Shown here: positions 2,520-63,991 of the stretch, in pieces
Layout: every line of letters starts with the position of its first letter
Numbering within the stretch: the first letter of the stretch is position 1
Made by a program: the position numbers and the translations under genes
The notes under the pieces: generated by a model
The model's input: only the letters and a program-made list of their open reading frames with translations
What the model was told of the DNA's origin: nothing
The model's database searches: none
Origin: Acidimicrobiia bacterium
GTDB lineage: Bacteria > Actinomycetota > Acidimicrobiia > IMCC26256 > PALSA-610
NCBI GenBank assembly: GCA_036271555.1
Contig: DATBAK010000003.1
Span: 62,001 to 126,000 of the forward strand
Direction of reading: 5' to 3'
DNA length: 64,000 nt

Positions 2520-3440
2520 GCCCCAGGGCAGCGTTTGGCGGCACGCCGTGCCTGTGCCCGACCCAGCATCGGCGAGCGGGCGTGATCCGCCGTCGCCGCG
2601 CGGTGAGCCATCGGCGGGTCGGCTCGATCCGGCGCAGGTTCACAACCGAGGTTCCCCGGCGCCGCTCGTTCGGGACCGCGAAGTTGTCGGAAATGGCGTC
2701 GGCGGGTCGGCTCGATCCGGCGCAGGTTCACAACCGAGGTTCCCCGGCCCCGCTCGTTCGGGACCGCGAAGTTGTCGGAAATGGCGTCCGTGGCCAATCC
2801 GGCGCGGGGATCACGACGCCGGCGCCCGTCGGTCCGCCTCGGCGACGGCCCCGGGGCCGTCGGAAGTGACGTCGGCGGCCGGCGACCGTCCTCGGCCGGC
2901 GCGAGCCGTCGTCACTCCATGCCGGGCGGCGGCCCCCGGTTCGATCCGCCGCGGGATTGCCACGCCGGCGCCCGCCGTCCGGCGGGTCACAGGGAGACCA
3001 CCGGGCAGCTCGGGAATTGGCGTCGGCACCCGCCTCTATCCGCCGTCGCTCCGTACCCGGCATCGGCGACCGGTTGATCCCGCGCAAGATCACGCCGGCG
3101 CTTCTTCCGGTCGGGCTCGTCGGGCTGACCGTACCGGTCGAAAGTGGGACGGCGTCGATTCGTCCGCCGTTCTCCGTGGCGAGGCGTCGACGGCCGGTCC
3201 GATCCGCCGTCAGGATCGCGTTGCCGGCGCCCTTCGGTCCCGTCGACGTTGACCGCGGCGCCGTCGGAAGTGACGTCAGGGCGGCGGGTTCGATTCGCCG
3301 TCGCTCCGTTCGAGGCACCGGCAGCCGCTTCGATCCGCCGCGGACGACGATGCCGACGCCTTCGGTCCGGACGTCGGTCGCGGACCACCGGGACGAGTCG
3401 GAAGTGGCGTCGGGCCTGCTCGGCGCTCACCGGGTGGCCC
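2520..3440. repeat. Array of decayed rsmG 3'-end copies between parS sites 2 and 3
   Basis: This gene-free stretch is built from degenerate copies of one module. On the plus strand each copy holds a 'TCGATCCGCCG' core, a 'CACGCCGGCGCC' part and usually a 'GTCGGAARTGRCG' end, spaced about 85-150 bases. Read on the minus strand, several copies still translate to something close to the rsmG C terminus GIVVLRRIEP, for example GVAIPRRIEP near 2950, SVVNLRRIEP in the tandem pair and GVILRGINRS near 3080. The piece right after parS site 2 translates to a decayed form of the last rsmG residues (HGVPPNAAL against NGVPAKRPL). Short open frames exist, but none has a start with a ribosome site or a sensible protein. 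A lone DnaA-box-like TTATCCCCA sits just outside at 2401. Confidence 0.75.
2611..2786. repeat. Tandem 88-bp repeat, two copies
   Basis: Copies at 2611-2698 and 2699-2786 are adjacent and differ at one base only (GGCGCCGC against GGCCCCGC). They are the youngest part of the rsmG-derived array and show that it still expands or is homogenised. Each copy keeps a minus-strand run encoding NLRRIEP, as in rsmG. Confidence 0.93.
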
Positions 3441-7197: not shown

Positions 7198-7320
7198 CCG
7201 AAACTGCGCCCAACGGTCCGGCCCCGGACGGCGCACACTTCCCCGGAACCGTTCACGTTCGGACCTTGGAGAGGCCACTCGCGCCGCCGCCGGTCCGGGC
7301 GAGAGGCTTTCTCCACACCT

Positions 7321-11280: not shown

Positions 11281-13668
<2,388 letters not shown>

Positions 13669-55965: not shown

Positions 55966-56106
55966 GTGAAGGCCTTCCGGCGGGTCATGCTCGTGCTCGG
56001 CGTCGCCGGCGTCATCGGCGGAGTCGCGCGGATCGTCGGCAAGCCCGTTCCCACTCCCAGCACGAAGGGAGGGTGGCGGGAGCTCGAGGGGCCGAACTTT
56101 CGATGA
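55966..56106 (+). CDS. Small single-span membrane protein, 46 aa
   Basis: KAFRRVMLVLGVAGVIGGVARIVGKPVP encodes one membrane helix with basic residues on both sides, followed by a short polar tail STKGGWRELEGPNF. The GTG 55966 starts it, and its stop overlaps the next gene's ATG (ATGA). No family known to me. Conservation of such a small frame next to the following gene would need a comparison. Confidence 0.6.
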   Translation: MKAFRRVMLVLGVAGVIGGVARIVGKPVPTPSTKGGWRELEGPNFR

Positions 56107-57092
56107 GTCGCGTGCTGCTCGTCGGGCTCGGTGAGGTCGGCGTGCGCGCGGCCCGTCAGCTCGTCGAGACACCCGGTGTCGATCGGGTGCTCGTCGCCGG
56201 CCATCGGCACCGCCGCGTCGACGAGCTCGTCGAATCGCTCGGTACGCGCGCGGAGTCCATCGACTTCCGGCCCGGCGATCCGATCCCGAACGTCGACGCG
56301 GTCGCGTGCGCGCTGCCCGACGACCTCGACGTCAAGGTCGTGATGACCGCGGTCGAGCAGGGTGTCGCGGTCGCTTCGTGTGCCGATGCGGCGCCCACGA
56401 TCGACCGCCTGCGCGCACTCGCCGACTCCGCACGCGAGCGCGCGGTCACCGTTGCGTTGGGTTGCGGGATCGCGCCCGGCCTCGCCGACGTGCTCGCGCG
56501 GCACGGTGCCGAAGCCTTCGACGAGGTCGACGAGATCGCGGTCGCGCGCTTCGGATGCGCGGGGCCGGCGAGCGTCGCGTCGGTGCGTTCCGAGCGGTCG
56601 GCTCCGGCGCGCGACTGGTACGACGGGGCGTGGCGTTCGATCGACCGGCCCGCCGAGGAGATCGTGTGGTTTCCCGAACCGATCGGCGCGCGTGACTGCC
56701 GCTCGGTGACCGGTGGGGCTTCGTTGCTCGTCGACGCGTTCCCGGGCGTTCCCTGCATTGGCGTGCGGCTCGGCGAGGCGCAACGCCGGCGCTTCGCGGT
56801 GCGGCGCCGCGTCGGCGACGAAGGCGAGTGGGGCGCGGCACGCGTCGAGGTGTACGGCCGGCGTGGTCGTGAGCGCGACGTCGTCGTCTACGGGGTCATC
56901 GAGCGGACCGCCGTCGCGGCCGGCACCGTGCTCGCGGTCGCGGCGGCGCAGCTCTGCGGTGCCGCGGGCGCGACGATCCACCGGCCGGGCGTGCACGGAC
57001 TCGCGGCGCTGGTCGAGCCGGTGATCTTTCTCTCCGAGCTGTCGGCTCGCGGCGTGCGGGTCGCGACCTTCGAAGGCGCGCCGGTCGGCTGA
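56103..57092 (+). CDS. Saccharopine dehydrogenase-like NAD(P)-binding protein
   Basis: A 329-aa protein beginning with a Rossmann fold (VLLVGLGEVGVRAARQL) and a 'saccharopine dehydrogenase NADP-binding' layout: GCGIAPGLADVLARHGAEAFDEVDEIAVARFG and later SVTGGASLLVDAFPGV. These proteins are often carboxynorspermidine-like or putative reductases. ATGA overlap with the small membrane protein. Next feature is the tRNA-Ala gene that hosts the mobile element. Confidence 0.8.
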   Translation: MSRVLLVGLGEVGVRAARQLVETPGVDRVLVAGHRHRRVDELVESLGTRAESIDFRPGDPIPNVDAVACALPDDLDVKVVMTAVEQGVAVASCADAAPTIDRLRALADSARERAVTVALGCGIAPGLADVLARHGAEAFDEVDEIAVARFGCAGPASVASVRSERSAPARDWYDGAWRSIDRPAEEIVWFPEPIGARDCRSVTGGASLLVDAFPGVPCIGVRLGEAQRRRFAVRRRVGDEGEWGAARVEVYGRRGRERDVVVYGVIERTAVAAGTVLAVAAAQLCGAAGATIHRPGVHGLAALVEPVIFLSELSARGVRVATFEGAPVG

Positions 57093-57138: not shown

Positions 57139-57214
57139 GGGGACGTAGCTCAGTTGGCAGAGCACCTGCTTTGCAAGCAGGGGGTCGTGGGTTCGAATCC
57201 CATCGTCTCCACCA
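57139..57214 (+). tRNA. tRNA-Ala (TGC anticodon), target of integration
   Basis: Cloverleaf with acceptor GGGGACG/CGTCTCC, including the G3:U70 pair diagnostic for alanine, anticodon loop CTTTGCAAG with TGC, T arm GTGGGTTCGAATCCCAT and CCA encoded (57212-57214). The 3' part from 57170 is repeated at 63949, so the integrated element restored the gene. A transcription terminator hairpin lies 37 bases after the CCA. Confidence 0.98.
57170..57212 (+). repeat. attL, 43-bp direct repeat
   Basis: From TTTGCAAGCAGG in the anticodon arm to the first C after the discriminator. It is identical to 63949-63991, the only other copy in the window. The crossover probably lies in this core. Confidence 0.95.
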
Positions 57215-57250
57215 ATCACGAGCCTCTTGACCAGGACTTCTGTACTCTGA

Positions 57251-57274
57251 ACCCCGCCTTCGAGCGGGGTTTTT
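57251..57274 (+). terminator. Rho-independent terminator after tRNA-Ala
   Basis: Stem ACCCCGC (57251-57257) and GCGGGGT (57264-57270), loop CTTCGA, then a run of five T. It stops tRNA-Ala transcription, which otherwise would enter the integrase gene. It lies inside the element. Confidence 0.88.
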
Positions 57275-57288
57275 GCATCGGTGATTAT

Positions 57289-57309
57289 CGATGTATCAAG
57301 GATGTATCA
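57289..57309 (+). repeat. 21-bp direct repeat, left copy (candidate integrase arm site)
   Basis: CGATGTATCAAGGATGTATCA is itself two GATGTATCA boxes two bases apart. It recurs exactly at 63810-63830. It covers the far-upstream ATG of the integrase frame. Position just inside both att sites suits arm-type binding sites for the integrase. Confidence 0.7.
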
Positions 57310-57326
57310 GAACGGGGCGGCACTGG

Positions 57327-58460
57327 ATGGTCTGGAAAGCGACAGGACGGCCGATTGTTCGCCAGCAGCGCGGGCGCTGGGTCGTTCGCATCGACGGGCT
57401 GGAAACAACGACCGGAACGGCGCGCCCGCGCCAAATCGGCACCTATTCGAGCCGGCGCGCGGCGCAGAGGGCGGCGACCGACGCCGCCGCATCGGGTGAA
57501 GGCCCCGTCGCTCGGGGCTCGGTCTCGTGGTTGGTTCACCGGTGGCTTGCATCGAAGACCGACATCTCGGTGAAGGGCAAAGCTCAGTACGAGTGGGCCG
57601 CGGGCCACATAGACCGGGCGCTCGGCCCGGTCCGTCTCGATCGGCTCGACCGCGAAGACATTGCACGCTGGCTCGAGGATCTCGCGCAGGGCGGGAAGTA
57701 CTCGCGGCGCAGCATCCAGATCTTCCGCAACACGCTGAAGGCCGCCCTCGCCGATGCGACCGACGAGGGCCTTATCCCGCGCAATCCTGCGGCGCGGGTT
57801 CCGATGCCGCGCGCCGTGGTGAAGCCAGGTTTGATCCGCGACACACCGAGCTGGGACGAGCAGCAGGTCGCGACGTTCCTCGCCGCGATCGTCGACCACC
57901 GCCTCGCCGCGCCGATCCGCCTCGAGACGCTCTACGGCTTGCGTCGCAGCGAGTTGCTCGCGTTGAAATGGGACGACATCGACTTCCGGAACGGCACCGT
58001 TGAAATCGACGAGGGCCTCGTGGAGGTCAAGGGTGGTGTGGTCTGGACTCCGGGCAAGAGCGCCCGTTCACGGCGCACCATGCCCGTCGACGAAGCGACG
58101 ATGGCGGGTCTGAAGTCGCACCGCCGAGCACAGAACGCCGAGCGATTGCAGGCGGGCGCAGAGTGGATCGGCCTCGACCTGGTGGTCACGACTCGAAACG
58201 GCAATTACGTCGAACCTCGCAACTTTGACGCGATCCTGGATCGGTTGATCACGCGCGCTGGCCTTCCACGCTTGACGTCGCACGGCCTGCGACATACCGC
58301 GGCGACACTGATGGTCCGACACTCGGCCGATCTTGGTGAGCTGCGAGCTGTGGCCGACATTCTCGGACACAGCCCCGACATGCTGATGAAGGTCTACGCG
58401 CACACCGTTCCTGAGAGCCTGCGTTCCGTCGTCGCCAAGATCGGTGATCGATCGTCCTGA
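57327..58460 (+). CDS. int: Tyrosine recombinase (site-specific integrase)
   Basis: A 377-aa integrase. An N-terminal arm-binding part reads RGRWVVRIDG...RQIGTYSSRRAAQRAAT, followed by a core-binding SAM-like domain (around KAQYEWAAGHIDRALGPVRLDRLDREDIARWLEDLAQ). The catalytic domain carries Arg206 (LYGLRRSE), His319-x-x-Arg322 (HGLRH), His348 (LGHS) and nucleophile Tyr357 (VYAHT), so it is intact. ATG 57327 is preferred because the ATG at 57291 lies within a repeat also found at the far end, outside any gene. Encoded beside the tRNA target, reading away from it; convergent with the relaxase. Confidence 0.93.
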   Translation: MVWKATGRPIVRQQRGRWVVRIDGLETTTGTARPRQIGTYSSRRAAQRAATDAAASGEGPVARGSVSWLVHRWLASKTDISVKGKAQYEWAAGHIDRALGPVRLDRLDREDIARWLEDLAQGGKYSRRSIQIFRNTLKAALADATDEGLIPRNPAARVPMPRAVVKPGLIRDTPSWDEQQVATFLAAIVDHRLAAPIRLETLYGLRRSELLALKWDDIDFRNGTVEIDEGLVEVKGGVVWTPGKSARSRRTMPVDEATMAGLKSHRRAQNAERLQAGAEWIGLDLVVTTRNGNYVEPRNFDAILDRLITRAGLPRLTSHGLRHTAATLMVRHSADLGELRAVADILGHSPDMLMKVYAHTVPESLRSVVAKIGDRSS

Positions 58461-58476
58461 ACACGGGGGCAAGTAT

Positions 58477-60945
58477 TCAGAGTTCGAGTTCCCGCGTGGC
58501 GATTCGTCTTCGCGGCTGCGTGTCGGTGGCGAGTTGTTCGGCTCCGGTGCGGGCGAGACCGCGTTCGAGTGGGGCGAGCTGGTGGTCGGGTTCGGTGTCG
58601 GGCAGGACGTAGAGGTGGTTGCTGGTCTTGCCGCGGGAGAGGCCGGTGTACGCGAGCTCTCGGTAGACGGTGTCGTCGACGAGCGCGTGCACGTGGCGCG
58701 CGGTCATGCCTTGGGTCTTGTGGATCGTGAACGCGTATCCGAGGTCGACGTGGCCGTCAGCGGCGTAGCGGAGTGGTAGCCGTCGTTGTTCGCCGTTGGT
58801 GGTGGTGATGTCGAGCATTCCGTCAACGGAGGTGATGACTCCGCGGGTTCCGTTGCGGACACCGACTCTCGTGTCGTTGCGCAGGCAGATGATCTCGTCA
58901 CCGGCTTGGTAGTGCCGGCCGGCGGCCATGAGCGTGGAGCCGGACAGTTGTCCGTCGTGGTCCATTCGTCGGCGGGCGAGTTGGTTGAGGTTGCGGACGT
59001 CGTCTCGGTGCGCGGCGATGATGATCGACTCGCCACCGCCGGCCCGATGGTTCCACCAGTCGTCGACGAGCTGGCGGAGAAGCTGATCGCGGGTGGGTGC
59101 GTGGTGAACGCGGCCGTGCTCGACATACATGGCGAGCGCGCGTTGAGGGTCGCCGGTGCGGAGCTCGCCGAGCGCGATCTGTTCCCAGACGGCTTGTTGA
59201 CGTCGGTTTTCGACGAGTTCGATGATGGGGAGCCGGCGGGCGAGTCCGGCGAGGAGTCCGCCGGCGTCGATGGCGGGGAGTTGGTGGGGGTCGCCGACGA
59301 GGACGAGTTTGCCGTTGGCGTCCCAGACGTGGCGGGCGAGCGCGGCGAGTTGCCGGGTGCCGACCATTGCGGCTTCGTCCACGATCACGATCGTGCCTGC
59401 GTCGAGCCGTTCCCCGCGTTCGAAGGCACCGAGGAGCGACGCGATCGTGAACGCCGGGATCTTGGCGGCGGTCGAGAGTTCGTCGACAGCCCGTCCCGCG
59501 AGCGCGGTGCCGATGACCGGCACATGCGTGGTCTGCCAGGCTTGAACGGCGGTGGCGAGCGCGGTGGTTTTGCCGGTTCCGGCTGCGGCGACGACGAGTT
59601 CGATCCCGCGGGTCGATCGGTTGAGCGTGGTGACGAGCTCGCGTTGCTCGTCGGAGAGGCCCGGCGTCCGATCGAGCACGCGTTGGAGGTCGGTGTCGTC
59701 GACGGCGCGCGTGTGCGAGCCCGCGGCTTTGGTGCGGGCGTGGGTGAGAATCTCGTGTTCGATGTCGAGGAGTTCACGCGTCGTGTAGCTCCGACCGGGG
59801 ACACCGCGACGTTGTATCGGACCGAGCGGAACGAAACGCGCGTCGAGCACGAGGTCGTCGGCGAGCCACTCGATCTCGGCGACGGTGCCACCGTCGCGGA
59901 GTTGGTCGCAGACACCTTGCAGCATCTCGAGCCGGCTGAACGTCGAACGTTTCGCAGTGAGACCACTCGTGGGTGCGCTCAGCGCAACGGCGACGGACGC
60001 GACGGACGGGCCGACACGACTGGTGGGCTCATTGGTGGGTGTTCTGGTGAGACTTTCGGTCAACTGAGCCGCGGGGAACCCGGCCGCGATCGCTTCGGCC
60101 GCCCAACGCGCCCGCAGGTCGGCGTCGTGTTCACCGACGATCTTCGCCGGCCGCGTCGCGAGCGTCGCGACCTGCGCGGCACGCGCGGACCGGCGGCCTT
60201 CGCGGGCGAGTTCGGCGACGATCGCGGCGCGCCGTTTCGAGAACAGACGCCGCAGCGGTTCGGTGACGCTGGTGAGCTCGCCGACACCGCTGCCGACCGG
60301 ACCCCAATCGGCACCGAGCCGCTGGGAGAGCTCGTGCCGGAGCTGTGCTTGGTAGAGGTAACCGGCGGTCTTGGCGTGGGCGAAGATCCGGCGGCTATCG
60401 AGCGTCCGCCAGACACCGTCATTCGGTGTCGGGGTGCTGTTCGCCACGATCACATGCGTGTGCAGGAGCGGGTCGCGTTCGCGGCTCGTGCGATGCACGA
60501 ACGCCGCAGCCAGGAACCCGCCACCCGCAGTCGTCGCGAGGCCGTTGTGGCCGCGACGGACCGCGCAGGCCTCACGCTCGAGGAACCCGACCGCAGCAGC
60601 GACCGCAGCGGCGTGCGCGCCGACGATCTCCGCCGCGACATCGGCTGGGGCGAACGCCCACGCGACCGAGACCGATTTCGGTGCCCGGAACGTCAGATCG
60701 AACCCGCGGACGCGACGATTGTCCGCGACGCCGAGCCGGGCACCGTCGCGTGGGTGCCGGTCGTCGAGAACCGCGGTCAGGTCCGCTCGCGCGACGTCGC
60801 CGGAGAGTCCGAGCAGCGACGCTGACGCGCACCACACGCCCGCGGGTGCGTCGGTGCCGAGGTAGTAGTCCTCGACACCCGACACGACCGCCTCGGCGTA
60901 ATAGGCCTCGACGTTCGCGCCGGTGAGGACCTTCACGTTCAACAC
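58477..60945 (-). CDS. MobF-family conjugative relaxase fused to TraI/TrwC-type helicase
   Basis: An 822-aa two-domain protein. The relaxase has paired tyrosines Tyr15/Tyr16 (EAYYAEAV) for nicking, the GFDLTFRAPKSVSV segment and a metal-binding triad His151, His162, His164 (VHRTS...LLHTHV). The C-terminal SF1 helicase has Walker A AAGTGKTT at 454-461, Walker B IVIVDEAAM near 520, motif III LVGDPHQLP and late motifs FTIHKTQGM and YTGLSRG. It nicks oriT and unwinds the transferred strand. It is shorter than plasmid TraI. It is transcribed toward the integrase from the hairpin-rich region at 61199-61320. Confidence 0.95.
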   Translation of the reverse strand: MLNVKVLTGANVEAYYAEAVVSGVEDYYLGTDAPAGVWCASASLLGLSGDVARADLTAVLDDRHPRDGARLGVADNRRVRGFDLTFRAPKSVSVAWAFAPADVAAEIVGAHAAAVAAAVGFLEREACAVRRGHNGLATTAGGGFLAAAFVHRTSRERDPLLHTHVIVANSTPTPNDGVWRTLDSRRIFAHAKTAGYLYQAQLRHELSQRLGADWGPVGSGVGELTSVTEPLRRLFSKRRAAIVAELAREGRRSARAAQVATLATRPAKIVGEHDADLRARWAAEAIAAGFPAAQLTESLTRTPTNEPTSRVGPSVASVAVALSAPTSGLTAKRSTFSRLEMLQGVCDQLRDGGTVAEIEWLADDLVLDARFVPLGPIQRRGVPGRSYTTRELLDIEHEILTHARTKAAGSHTRAVDDTDLQRVLDRTPGLSDEQRELVTTLNRSTRGIELVVAAAGTGKTTALATAVQAWQTTHVPVIGTALAGRAVDELSTAAKIPAFTIASLLGAFERGERLDAGTIVIVDEAAMVGTRQLAALARHVWDANGKLVLVGDPHQLPAIDAGGLLAGLARRLPIIELVENRRQQAVWEQIALGELRTGDPQRALAMYVEHGRVHHAPTRDQLLRQLVDDWWNHRAGGGESIIIAAHRDDVRNLNQLARRRMDHDGQLSGSTLMAAGRHYQAGDEIICLRNDTRVGVRNGTRGVITSVDGMLDITTTNGEQRRLPLRYAADGHVDLGYAFTIHKTQGMTARHVHALVDDTVYRELAYTGLSRGKTSNHLYVLPDTEPDHQLAPLERGLARTGAEQLATDTQPRRRIATRELEL

Positions 60946-61361
60946 GCCGTGGTCCCCGCGACCCCACCAAAGAGCCCACCAATCGGGCCGAGCATCGCTG
61001 ATGCCAGTCTGTGCTCACCATCCGAACACTCACCAAAACCACGCCCGATCGCGCAGAACCGGCTCCCGCGCGACCCGGCATCGACCCGTCCCGTTGACTG
61101 CTCCATCGCACCGTCTCCCTCCGACCGAACGACCGTTCCGCGACCGCGAACGCATCCGACGCTCGCGACCCGTCCTCTGTGTGCGAACGCGCGAGCCAGA
61201 TCGGAACCAGAAATCGGTTCCGATCGCGCGATTTTTTCGGCACACAAGGGTCGACACCCAACGGAACGCGGTCACCAGCGCGCGCGAGCGAGCGACCGGA
61301 TCGGCATCAGAAGCCGATCCACCACCGGGCCGATGACACCAACGAGAAGGAGCAGCCACCG
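60946..61361. other. Gene-free block upstream of the relaxase with two related hairpins (candidate oriT)
   Basis: No credible gene in these 416 bases. It holds two inverted repeats: GATCGGAACC/GGTTCCGATC (61199-61208 and 61216-61225, 7-base loop AGAAATC), followed by ATCGCGCGAT and a T6 run; and GGATCGGC/GCCGATCC (61298-61305 and 61313-61320, 7-base loop ATCAGAA). The loops share CAGAA, and arms share GATCGG. Paired hairpins beside a MobF gene suggest oriT, though the first plus its T-run could also be a terminator for a plus-strand transcript. Confidence 0.45.
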
Positions 61362-61553
61362 ATGACAACCAGCCCGATTCGCACGAAGACGCCCGCGTCG
61401 ACGATGTCGATCACCGAAGCCGCCGACACGCTCGGCATCGGCCGAACCCTCGCCTACGAACTCGCCCGCACCGGCGAACTCCCCACCATCCGCCTCGGCC
61501 GCCGACTCGTCGTACCCCGACGAGCACTCCAACGACTGCTCGGCGATGGCTGA
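61362..61553 (+). CDS. Excisionase-like HTH protein (recombination directionality factor candidate)
   Basis: A 63-residue protein of the HTH_17/excisionase group: SITEAADTLGIGRTLAYELARTGELPTIRLGRRLVVPRRALQRLLG. It forms a winged helix-turn-helix that reads one DNA half-site. AAGGAG lies nine bases before ATG 61362. In elements of this kind it bends DNA at att to favour excision by the integrase. Confidence 0.87.
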   Translation: MTTSPIRTKTPASTMSITEAADTLGIGRTLAYELARTGELPTIRLGRRLVVPRRALQRLLGDG

Positions 61554-61891
61554 ACATCGCCGGCCGTCGCGGTTCCGCAGTGGACAGGCCGAGCGGCTAT
61601 CGAAACGAGCACCGCTCGTCCTCGATCACCGGACCATCTTGTTCGTTGCGCCAAGCGCAACGAACTGAGGGGATTCGCGGCGCGACAGGTTGTCGTGGGT
61701 CGGAGCGCGCAATCGAAGAAACGGACGTCGACGGACACCCCGGAAGAGGCCCGTAGCGATTGGTGATCGCCGCAACCGAGGTGCGCCGCCGCCCAAATGC
61801 GCTGTCGAGACTGCAGTCTCCTCCTGGGCTCTTGGCACTGCGTCGTCGGCGATCGCGCGCTGCGTCTCAGCGTGTCTCTACGCTTTCGTCT
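61554..61891. other. Gene-free stretch with strong hairpin at 61641-61665
   Basis: I see no gene in these 338 bases. At 61641-61651 and 61655-61665 there is a perfect 11-bp inverted repeat (GTTCGTTGCGC, loop CAA, GCGCAACGAAC) without a T-run. It may be a structured RNA element or a binding site. Confidence 0.6.
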
Positions 61892-62251
61892 GTGGCGGTG
61901 AAACGGCGCTGGCGCTTCTACACGACTGCAGCAGGTCGCAGCCCGGTTCGAGACTTCCTGACCGCGGCGCGTCTGTCGAGCGACGATCGCGACGAGATCC
62001 TCGCTGCGATGAAGGATGTCCAGGTCAACGGTCTGCCGATCGCGCGTCACCTCAGCGGCGACGTGTACGAGGTGCGTGCCGACGGCCGCCAAGCCACCTA
62101 CCGCGTCCTTTTCGCGGCTGAGGGAAAGAGCAGCCAGGTCCTCCTGGCGCTGTCGGCGTTCAGCAAGAAGACCCAACGCACACCGCCCGACGAGATCCGT
62201 CTCGCCCATCGGCGACTCACCGACTGGCGAGCGCGCGCCCGAACCGAATAA
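61892..62251 (+). CDS. higB: HigB/RelE-like toxin (Gp49-like, DUF891)
   Basis: A 119-aa basic protein: RRWRFYTTAAGRSPVRDFLTAARLSSDDRDEILAAMKDV, then GLPIARHLSGDVYEVRADGRQATYRVLFAAEG, KSSQVLLALSAFSKKTQRTPPDEIRLAHRRL. This is the phage-derived Gp49-like/HigB layout of mRNA-cleaving toxins with the RelE fold. It precedes the antitoxin gene, as is usual for HigBA. GTG 61892 or GTG 61898 may be the start. Activity is inferred from family and neighbour. Confidence 0.85.
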   Translation: MAVKRRWRFYTTAAGRSPVRDFLTAARLSSDDRDEILAAMKDVQVNGLPIARHLSGDVYEVRADGRQATYRVLFAAEGKSSQVLLALSAFSKKTQRTPPDEIRLAHRRLTDWRARARTE

Positions 62252-62276
62252 CTCAAATCTGGGTTATGCTGAGGTC

Positions 62277-62636
62277 ATGGCTCGCAAAGACGACCTCGAC
62301 ACGCTCATCGACGAGCTCGCAGCCGACGACCCCGACATCCATCTGCGCGTCGCCGCTGCCCTCCAGCGCCGCGAGCTCGCGCGCCAACTCGCCGACTGCC
62401 GACGCGCCGCCGGCCTTACCCAGGTCGCGATCGCCGAACGTATGGGAACGAGCCAGGGCCAGGTCACGCGTTTCGAGTCGGGCGCCGACACCAGACTGTC
62501 GACGGTCGCCCGTTACGCCGCCGCCCTCGGCGTCCAGATCGACTGGACAATCACACCGGCCCGACGGACGCGGCGACCGGTGGCTCGAGCGACGAAGACG
62601 CATCACCGCGCTCCTGCGCGAGCCTCACGAAACTGA
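62277..62636 (+). CDS. higA: HigA-like antitoxin, XRE family
   Basis: A 119-aa protein with a helix-turn-helix (LADCRRAAGLTQVAIAERMGTSQGQVTRFESGADTRLSTVARYAAALG), preceded by an N-terminal helix and followed by a basic tail. It binds the toxin and represses the pair. ATG 62277 follows a TATGCT -10 at 62265-62270 so closely that a separate leaderless transcript for the antitoxin is possible, besides cotranscription with the toxin 25 bases upstream. Confidence 0.87.
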   Translation: MARKDDLDTLIDELAADDPDIHLRVAAALQRRELARQLADCRRAAGLTQVAIAERMGTSQGQVTRFESGADTRLSTVARYAAALGVQIDWTITPARRTRRPVARATKTHHRAPARASRN

Positions 62637-62811
62637 GGTTCGAGGCAATCGCACTGACGGCCTCGCACAACCGACTCGACTTCCGCCGAACCCCGAAGGG
62701 GTCGATCACCCCCATCACCGCGGAGCCGGCGCTTGGAGACGCCCGAGACGCGTCGATATGGGAGCGCGCGTTGGGGCCAGCTTGGCGTGTTCTCGAGGAG
62801 GCGTTTCGGTG

Positions 62812-63483
62812 TTAGTCGACGGTCCAGGTTTTCGTGCGGTGTAGTCGAATACGCCAGTCGGCGGCGGAGCGATCCATACCGGCCGACTCGCAATACTCGA
62901 TCAGGCCTTCGATCTGTTGAAGCATTGCTCTTTGTCGCTGCGCCCAGGGCGGCCGTTGCTGTGCAGCCTCGAAGATTGCGTCGAGCGCATCGATAGCTTC
63001 GGGGTGGTGCATGCGGACGATCCACTCGCTCCAGGCGAGGTCCTCGATCGGGCTGCCGATGTGAGCCGATTCCCAGTCGAGAACGCCGGTGACGCGATCC
63101 GCGTTCAGGTCGAAGAGCATGTTCTGCGGTCCGAAGTCGCCGTGCACGATCACTGAACCCTCGCCGACGAGATCAGGAACCGTGTCGGGTGGCACCCCTT
63201 GCAACGCGACCAACGCCTCACCCGCGAGTCGCAACACCTTGGACGCATGGCCCTCATCGATCAGTTCTTGGCCGTGACGGCCCGGGAGCAAGCTCAGGCT
63301 CAGCCGCGGGACGGAGAGGTCCTGGTCCACGACAATGGCGACGGGCAGTTGACCGGCGAGTCCAACAAGACACGCCAGTTCCCGCGCCGAGTTCGCCCAG
63401 CGCCGCGGCCCGTCGTAAGTCTTTTCCACTTGCGCATCCACCAAGCGAGTGAAGTTCGTGTAGCCGTGCGGAAGGCGATCCAT
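62812..63483 (-). CDS. Aminoglycoside phosphotransferase (APH) family kinase
   Basis: A 223-aa protein of the APH/choline-kinase-like fold: VIVHGDFGPQNMLFD (catalytic loop with Asp116 and Asn121) and VTGVLDWESAHIG (metal-binding Asp136). The N-terminal lobe is present but short (LPHGYTNFTRLVDAQVEKTYDGPRRWANSARELACL). It is smaller than typical resistance enzymes (about 260-330), so it may not act on aminoglycosides; members also phosphorylate other small molecules. ATG 63483. It is the cargo gene of the element. Confidence 0.85.
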   Translation of the reverse strand: MDRLPHGYTNFTRLVDAQVEKTYDGPRRWANSARELACLVGLAGQLPVAIVVDQDLSVPRLSLSLLPGRHGQELIDEGHASKVLRLAGEALVALQGVPPDTVPDLVGEGSVIVHGDFGPQNMLFDLNADRVTGVLDWESAHIGSPIEDLAWSEWIVRMHHPEAIDALDAIFEAAQQRPPWAQRQRAMLQQIEGLIEYCESAGMDRSAADWRIRLHRTKTWTVD

Positions 63484-63809
63484 CCCGACATCATCGCGGG
63501 AGTCGGGCTTCGCCGATCGCCGCGATCCCAGTCGGTATGCCCCCCGCGATCGCGGGCGGGGGTTCACGCGCGTTCGAGACGCCGTCGCTCAGATCTGCAT
63601 TCTCATGGCGCGTTCATGGCGCGCGCTGACGTCCGTAGGGGTTCGGCGATGTTCGCTCCCGAGTACGACGCTCGCTGCTGACGTTCGCCGGCGCGCGTTT
63701 AGCGCCGACGGCCCGTACTGTACGCGGTGCATGAAGTCGCATCGCTCGTCTCGATCGAGCGGAGGAGTGACAGCGGCTCCCCTGCGCGCGTGCCCGGCTA
63801 AGACGGGCG
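63484..63809. other. Gene-free stretch at right end of the element
   Basis: No credible gene. It includes a 14-bp perfect palindrome CCCGCGATCGCGGG at 63543-63556, near the phosphotransferase start, and a short direct TCATGGCGCG repeat around 63603-63622. Otherwise nothing evident. Confidence 0.6.
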
Positions 63810-63830
63810 CGATGTATCAAGGATGTATCA
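63810..63830 (+). repeat. 21-bp direct repeat, right copy (candidate integrase arm site)
   Basis: Identical to 57289-57309, in the same orientation, 118 bases before attR. Outside any gene here, which supports a role as DNA signal and not as coding sequence. Confidence 0.7.
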
Positions 63831-63933
63831 AACCGCTGCGTTCTGAGGCGTGTCGGCGTGAACGTCGCGTGACCGTCAGTCTGTAAACGCCCAGGTCAGA
63901 AGCCCTGTGCGAACGCTGGCGGACGCCGGCGAA

Positions 63934-63991
63934 TAGCCCAATTGCAGATTTGCAAGCAGGGGGTCGTGGGTTCGAATCCCATCGTCTCCAC
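63934..63991 (+). repeat. attR with degenerate tRNA-Ala 5' half
   Basis: The last 43 bases (63949-63991) are identical to attL. Before them, TAGCCCAATTGCAGA resembles the D arm TAGCTCAGTTGGCAGA of the tRNA, with 8 bases between D arm and anticodon arm missing. It is not a functional tRNA. The element's attachment site therefore seems derived from a larger, decayed copy of the tRNA gene. Confidence 0.85.

Follow-up and report, generated by a model that had tools for sequence, protein, structure and literature searches.

A 6.8-kb element with a MOBF relaxase in a tRNA-Ala gene of an Acidimicrobiia bacterium, a predicted integrative and mobilizable element

The stretch of DNA analysed here, hereafter the window, comprises 64,000 nucleotides of contig C3 from the genome of an Acidimicrobiia bacterium. 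Near its right end lies an element of 6.8 kb, bracketed by an exact direct repeat of 43 bp (attL core at 57170–57212 and attR core at 63949–63991, both on the forward strand), as a first-pass annotation of the sequence had stated. The repeated core begins in the anticodon loop of tRNA-Ala(TGC) and reaches its 3′ end; ARAGORN placed this tRNA gene at 57139–57214 on the forward strand. The gene is intact at the left repeat copy, indicating that the insertion leaves the tRNA undestroyed, with the target gene rebuilt at attL. In the organism's own genome, the full-length exact core was found at two places only, which are the two ends of the element. The GC content of the element is 66.7%, compared with 70.1% for the remainder of the window.

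At the left end, the element encodes a tyrosine integrase of 389 amino acids (57291–58460, forward strand; translation could alternatively start from the in-frame ATG at 57327). The protein matched PF00589 (1.6e-20), and the R, HxxR, H, and Y residues of the integrase signature are all present, in line with the complete set predicted earlier. A motif search of the 64-kb window revealed two matches to TGTATCA-N4-TGTATCA, at 57292–57309 and 63813–63830 on the forward strand, where none is expected by chance (none in 100 shuffles). Both copies sit just inward of the element ends, and judged by this position, they are probably the arm-type sites of the tyrosine recombinase. The right site (P arm) lies 119 bp ahead of the attR core, whereas the left site (P′ arm) overlaps the first possible start codon of the integrase gene, so that integrase binding at the left arm could regulate int as well. 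The distances between core and arm, compared between the window and a sibling element from another genus (locus L090 of genome G002, left arm motif at position 7266), are 80 and 81 bp on the left and 119 bp in both on the right.

The second large gene of the element (58477–60945, reverse strand) encodes a MobF (TrwC-type) relaxase of 822 amino acids fused to a RecD-like helicase. The protein matched the TrwC (8.9e-75) and AAA_30 (8.9e-50) profiles and scored 225 bits with the NCBIfam MobF model NF041492, for which the cut-off is 100. Every catalytic residue tested was found (Tyr-15/Tyr-16, Tyr-27/Tyr-28, Asp-83, His-151/His-162/His-164, Lys-459 of Walker A, and Asp-523 of Walker B), which bears out the earlier description of complete relaxase and helicase motifs, and these residues are kept in most relatives. 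The N-terminal tyrosines, the three-histidine motif, and the fused SF1 helicase together place the protein in the MOBF family. Its best named relative is encoded at a locus of Nitriliruptoraceae, Actinomycetota (L008). In the relaxase tree, the forks were too unresolved to place the window relaxase relative to the relaxases of plasmids or of integrative and conjugative elements (ICEs).

No gene of the element gave a Pfam or NCBIfam match to coupling or mating-pair proteins, and phmmer searches with local type IV coupling protein (T4CP) and VirB4 sequences as queries gave no match in the loci that combine MobF with an integrase. These data agree with the first-pass annotation, which had reported no secretion or coupling gene in the 6.8 kb. 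The element therefore has neither the VirB4 and T4CP that define ICEs with a type IV secretion system (T4SS) nor the FtsK/TraB translocase and Rep protein of actinomycete ICEs (AICEs), and the traC and traD genes of the traACD type known from Mesorhizobium were not recognised by Pfam, NCBIfam, or PHROGs. What it does have is a recombinase with att sites and a relaxase of its own, in the absence of mating-pair and coupling genes. Together, these features make it likely that this element with its MOBF relaxase belongs to the integrative and mobilizable elements (IMEs; iMOB type), predicted from its sequence to excise and to be transferred by a helper.

In the mechanism that we propose, the integrase would bind the TGTATCA pair near each end, recombine the 43-bp core, which lies in the 3′ half of tRNA-Ala(TGC), and release a 6.8-kb circle. 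The relaxase-helicase would cut at an origin of transfer (oriT) near its own gene and unwind the strand. A conjugative plasmid or ICE resident in the same cell would provide the coupling protein and the mating channel, and the strand would recircularise in the recipient and reintegrate in a tRNA-Ala gene there. A candidate oriT lies upstream of the relaxase gene (61178–61246, reverse strand; hairpin arms at 61199–61225): a long imperfect inverted repeat, the DNA fold of which had a z-score of −4.1 and was better than those of all shuffles (0 of 200 equalled it). This segment is a weak candidate, since relatives do not conserve it and a hairpin scan had guided its choice for the folding test. 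Hairpins upstream of the relaxases at 18 loci had no motif in common; a short hairpin, GCACGCCCYTGCACTCTTCG..AGTGC, is common to L090, L092, and L093 only. Between the window and L008, the spacing of the relaxase gene and the neighboring helix-turn-helix (HTH) gene is similar, and no convincing sequence similarity was found in this intergenic region.

This neighboring gene (61362–61553, forward strand) encodes a small HTH_17 protein of 63 amino acids of the excisionase DNA-binding family (PF12728, 7.4e-11; TIGR01764). Of 22 loci, 15 have an HTH_17 gene adjoining the 5′ end of the relaxase gene; the two genes point the same way in 13 of these and are divergent in the window and L008. This arrangement marks the HTH_17 gene as a member of the mobilization module. 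In genome G002, the HTH and relaxase genes of L090 (8479–11367) and L092 (8200–11083) form a common module that is 97% identical over 2.9 kb, whereas the integrases and att sites of the two elements are unrelated; the L092 relaxase reading frame is broken in pieces. The sharing of this module by two unrelated integrases suggests a recent module exchange. The earlier proposal of an excisionase candidate thus holds insofar as an excisionase-family gene exists, but the label itself is doubtful, because the gene travels with the relaxase and not with the integrase. The HTH_17 protein appears instead to be a conserved partner of the relaxase that would act as a directionality factor, a regulator, or a relaxosome accessory protein.

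Related elements were found in other genomes of the class. L090, from a different genus of the same family, is a 10.1-kb element in tRNA-Ala(TGC) with a 42-bp repeat; its integrase is 75% identical to that of the window and its relaxase 41–44% identical. It further contains an HTH_17 gene and insertion sequence (IS) elements, and T4SS or coupling genes were not found in it. L090 is thus a relative of the kind for which the first-pass annotation had advised a search, with integrase, MobF relaxase, and excisionase-like gene together in tRNA-Ala. When 395 genomes of the class were scanned for the arm motif, only 10 matched. Inspection of these matches delimited two MobF elements in G176 (one of 15.8 kb in tRNA-Pro, the other of 16.3 kb in tRNA-Ala) and one in G355 (14.1 kb in tRNA-Arg), the relaxase of the latter being apparently damaged in its N-terminal part. 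No T4SS or T4CP Pfam match was obtained among the tested genes of these three elements. The same scan led to a 5.6-kb element in tRNA-Pro of G196 (L210, 8693–14361; 46-bp repeat) with a related integrase and a methyltransferase-domain gene; unlike the G176 and G355 elements, it has no relaxase and may rely on that of another element. The integrases of the G176, G355, and G196 elements are 54–59% identical to the window integrase, and as cargo the arm-motif elements carry, for example, a serpin, an ECF sigma factor, and IS110 transposases. The serpin domain (PF00079, 2.9e-95) forms the C-terminal part of a 703-residue cargo protein of a G176 MobF element (L206, 1722–3833).

Relaxases that are 40–45% identical to the one in the window often adjoin other tyrosine integrases. 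L094 and L106, the latter with a more distant relaxase, have delimiting repeats at tRNA-Gly, with three copies of the tRNA-Gly 3′ end at each locus (6111, 15606, and 18382 in L094; 708, 4778, and 13606 in L106), which suggests tandem accretion of elements around MobF relaxases. In L092, an exact 75-bp direct repeat (3228–3302 and 12317–12391), with more partial copies close by, covers the end of a 437-codon protein-coding frame beside the integrase, and this MobF element apparently uses the 3′ end of a protein gene as its site. Two scans of IMG/VR gave no MobF locus with the relaxase and only distant integrases with the integrase. These comparisons place the element in a family whose members are scattered across the class.

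The genome that carries the element is a metagenome-assembled genome (MAG) of 4.68 Mb in 104 contigs (95.8% complete, 4.45% contamination) and is the only one of its genus. In several related genomes, the gene upstream of the element (56073–57092) precedes tRNA-Ala(TGC). ARAGORN also called a 94-nt tRNA-Phe within this coding gene (56476–56569), probably a false positive. On the other side, contig C3 runs 180 bp beyond attR, or 171 bp past the window. Its final 141 bp are identical to the end of contig C73 (reverse strand), as expected from a k = 141 assembly break near attR. The host DNA beyond attR continues in C73, and the genes there show synteny with the sequence that follows tRNA-Ala in G002, G003, and G006. 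We considered whether the break reflects a mixed population of empty and occupied sites and rejected this explanation; an overlap of exactly 141 bp that starts ~82 bp downstream of the core start is not explained by an empty-site branch alone. In G003 and G006, the same block of gene, tRNA-Ala, and downstream region has no copy of the window integrase in the downstream interval, which is occupied in G000 and G002. The empty site predicted for relatives is therefore seen, as evidence of an unoccupied locus between genera and not within a species. For G176, host of two siblings, the flanks were not found in 0.8 Mb of its congener G059, a region chosen by guessed synteny.

Several observations weigh against the IME reading. 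Homology gave no identification of an oriT, the unoccupied loci come from other genera with no close strain among them, and the attR-side junction with C73 rests on the 141-bp overlap and on synteny. The host MAG encodes no recognisable helper: we found no VirB4 (PF03135) and no TraG-D_C coupling protein in it, all AAA_10 matches were below the cut-off, and the genome has one TrwC relaxase and a single FtsK, located outside the element. Consequently, the element awaits a helper, has one on a plasmid that could be absent from the bin, or may now be stranded. The obvious place to seek a helper is G002, which carries the sibling element together with many relaxases, coupling proteins, and one VirB4.

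The lack of a helper in the host would also fit the remains of a larger ICE that has decayed, losing its T4SS and coupling genes and its intercellular mobility, and ICE-like loci that combine MobF with a TraG-type coupling protein do occur in the same family (contig C79 of G001 and contig C12 of G002). We regard such a remnant as unlikely, since the element retains an intact integrase, relaxase, pair of att repeats, and pair of arm sites, no T4SS fragments were found, and siblings of several genera have the same integrase–HTH–relaxase core with no recognisable transfer genes. It is very unlikely that the relaxase is mainly a rolling-circle replication initiator of an excised, plasmid-like form that spreads by transduction or transformation. 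The element has no separate replication gene that we could recognise, and a Mob protein can act as initiator according to Ghinet et al. (PMC3218068); however, the relaxase and helicase motifs are those of the conjugative MobF type, no capsid or packaging gene was found in the element, and the IMG/VR scans described above point away from a viral carrier.

A further explanation is transfer by a route other than a canonical T4SS, for instance through a pump of the FtsK/TraB type or through some actinobacterial system that went unrecognised. Neither VirB4 nor a TraG-type coupling protein occurs in the host or in most sampled members of the family, and Guglielmini et al. (PMC3158045) noted in 2011 the puzzle that actinobacteria have many relaxase (MOB) genes and surprisingly few T4SSs. 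Against this stand the VirB4 and coupling proteins of the sibling host, the position of the only FtsK of the genome as a single gene outside the element, and the fact that no relaxase–FtsK interaction had been published by 2011 (PMC3158045), and we hold this route to be highly improbable. In its broadest form, the idea would be that a class-wide, relaxase-only MOBF lineage, whose hosts mostly lack recognisable T4SSs and coupling proteins, persists because it moves by an export route new to relaxases, either FtsK/TraB-like or through an unrecognised actinobacterial machine; we consider this quite unlikely.

As an IME with a MOBF relaxase, the element resembles several known systems in part. The canonical IMEs reviewed by Guedon et al. 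in 2017 (PMC5704250) also carry their own integrase and relaxase and no coupling or mating-pair protein, but the relaxases listed are MobP, MobQ, MobV, or MobC, none of them MobF, and the sole actinobacterial example, ATE-1, has a MobV relaxase. Closer counterparts are the 24 MOBF IMEs delineated in Mesorhizobium in 2021 (PMC8627217), which range from 5.8 kb up and use mostly tRNA sites; they combine an integrase and a MOBF relaxase with flanking att repeats and no T4SS, and a putative directionality-factor gene adjoins the relaxase gene, as the HTH_17 gene does here. In contrast to our element, they are alphaproteobacterial, and most carry a Ti-like traACD locus with the accessory proteins TraC and TraD, only one having a lone MOBF gene; the element has no recognised traC or traD, an HTH_17 partner, and an integrase family with TGTATCA arm sites. 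Actinobacterial T4SS ICEs, defined with a TrwC relaxase, and AICEs, often found in tRNA 3′ ends, are likewise integrated, but the former encode T4CP and VirB4 and the latter FtsK/TraB and Rep (PMC3218068), and the element encodes neither set. Finally, the small actinobacterial plasmids pMAB23 and pCFAEC45971c also have a MobF relaxase-helicase, and no T4SS gene is annotated in the part of them that was seen; they replicate as plasmids and encode Rep (pCFAEC45971c also Par), and their relaxases, of about 1,110–1,140 amino acids, are only about 30% identical to that of the element.

The suggestion of a little-described group of helper-dependent MobF elements is thus supported at the sequence level by the siblings within the class, but the kind is not new, since MOBF IMEs have already been delineated in Mesorhizobium. 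The actinobacterial lineage, the att arm motif, and the HTH partner appear to be undescribed in the open-access literature that we searched, which was limited in scope. The element and its siblings provide cleanly bounded, apparently intact examples that bear on the abundance of relaxases and scarcity of T4SSs in actinobacteria. With these examples and with an arm motif that traced further members by genome scan, how lone MOBF elements move becomes a testable question.

The element carries three further genes. A Gp49/RelE-superfamily toxin-like protein (61892–62251, forward strand, 119 amino acids; PF05973, 2.3e-15) and an HTH antitoxin-like protein (62277–62636, forward strand, 119 amino acids; HTH_31, 1.2e-11; HTH_3, 2.8e-11) form a toxin-antitoxin-like pair spanning 61892–62636, which may stabilise the element. 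An APH-like phosphotransferase, regarded as cargo (62812–63567, reverse strand), matched PF01636 (3.6e-18), and no profile reached its NCBIfam equivalog cut-off for this protein. Given the toxin-antitoxin-like pair and the kinase, the description of the element as minimal does not strictly apply. Between the HTH_17 and toxin genes lies a perfect 11-bp hairpin, GTTCGTTGCGC-CAA-GCGCAACGAAC, at 61641–61665.

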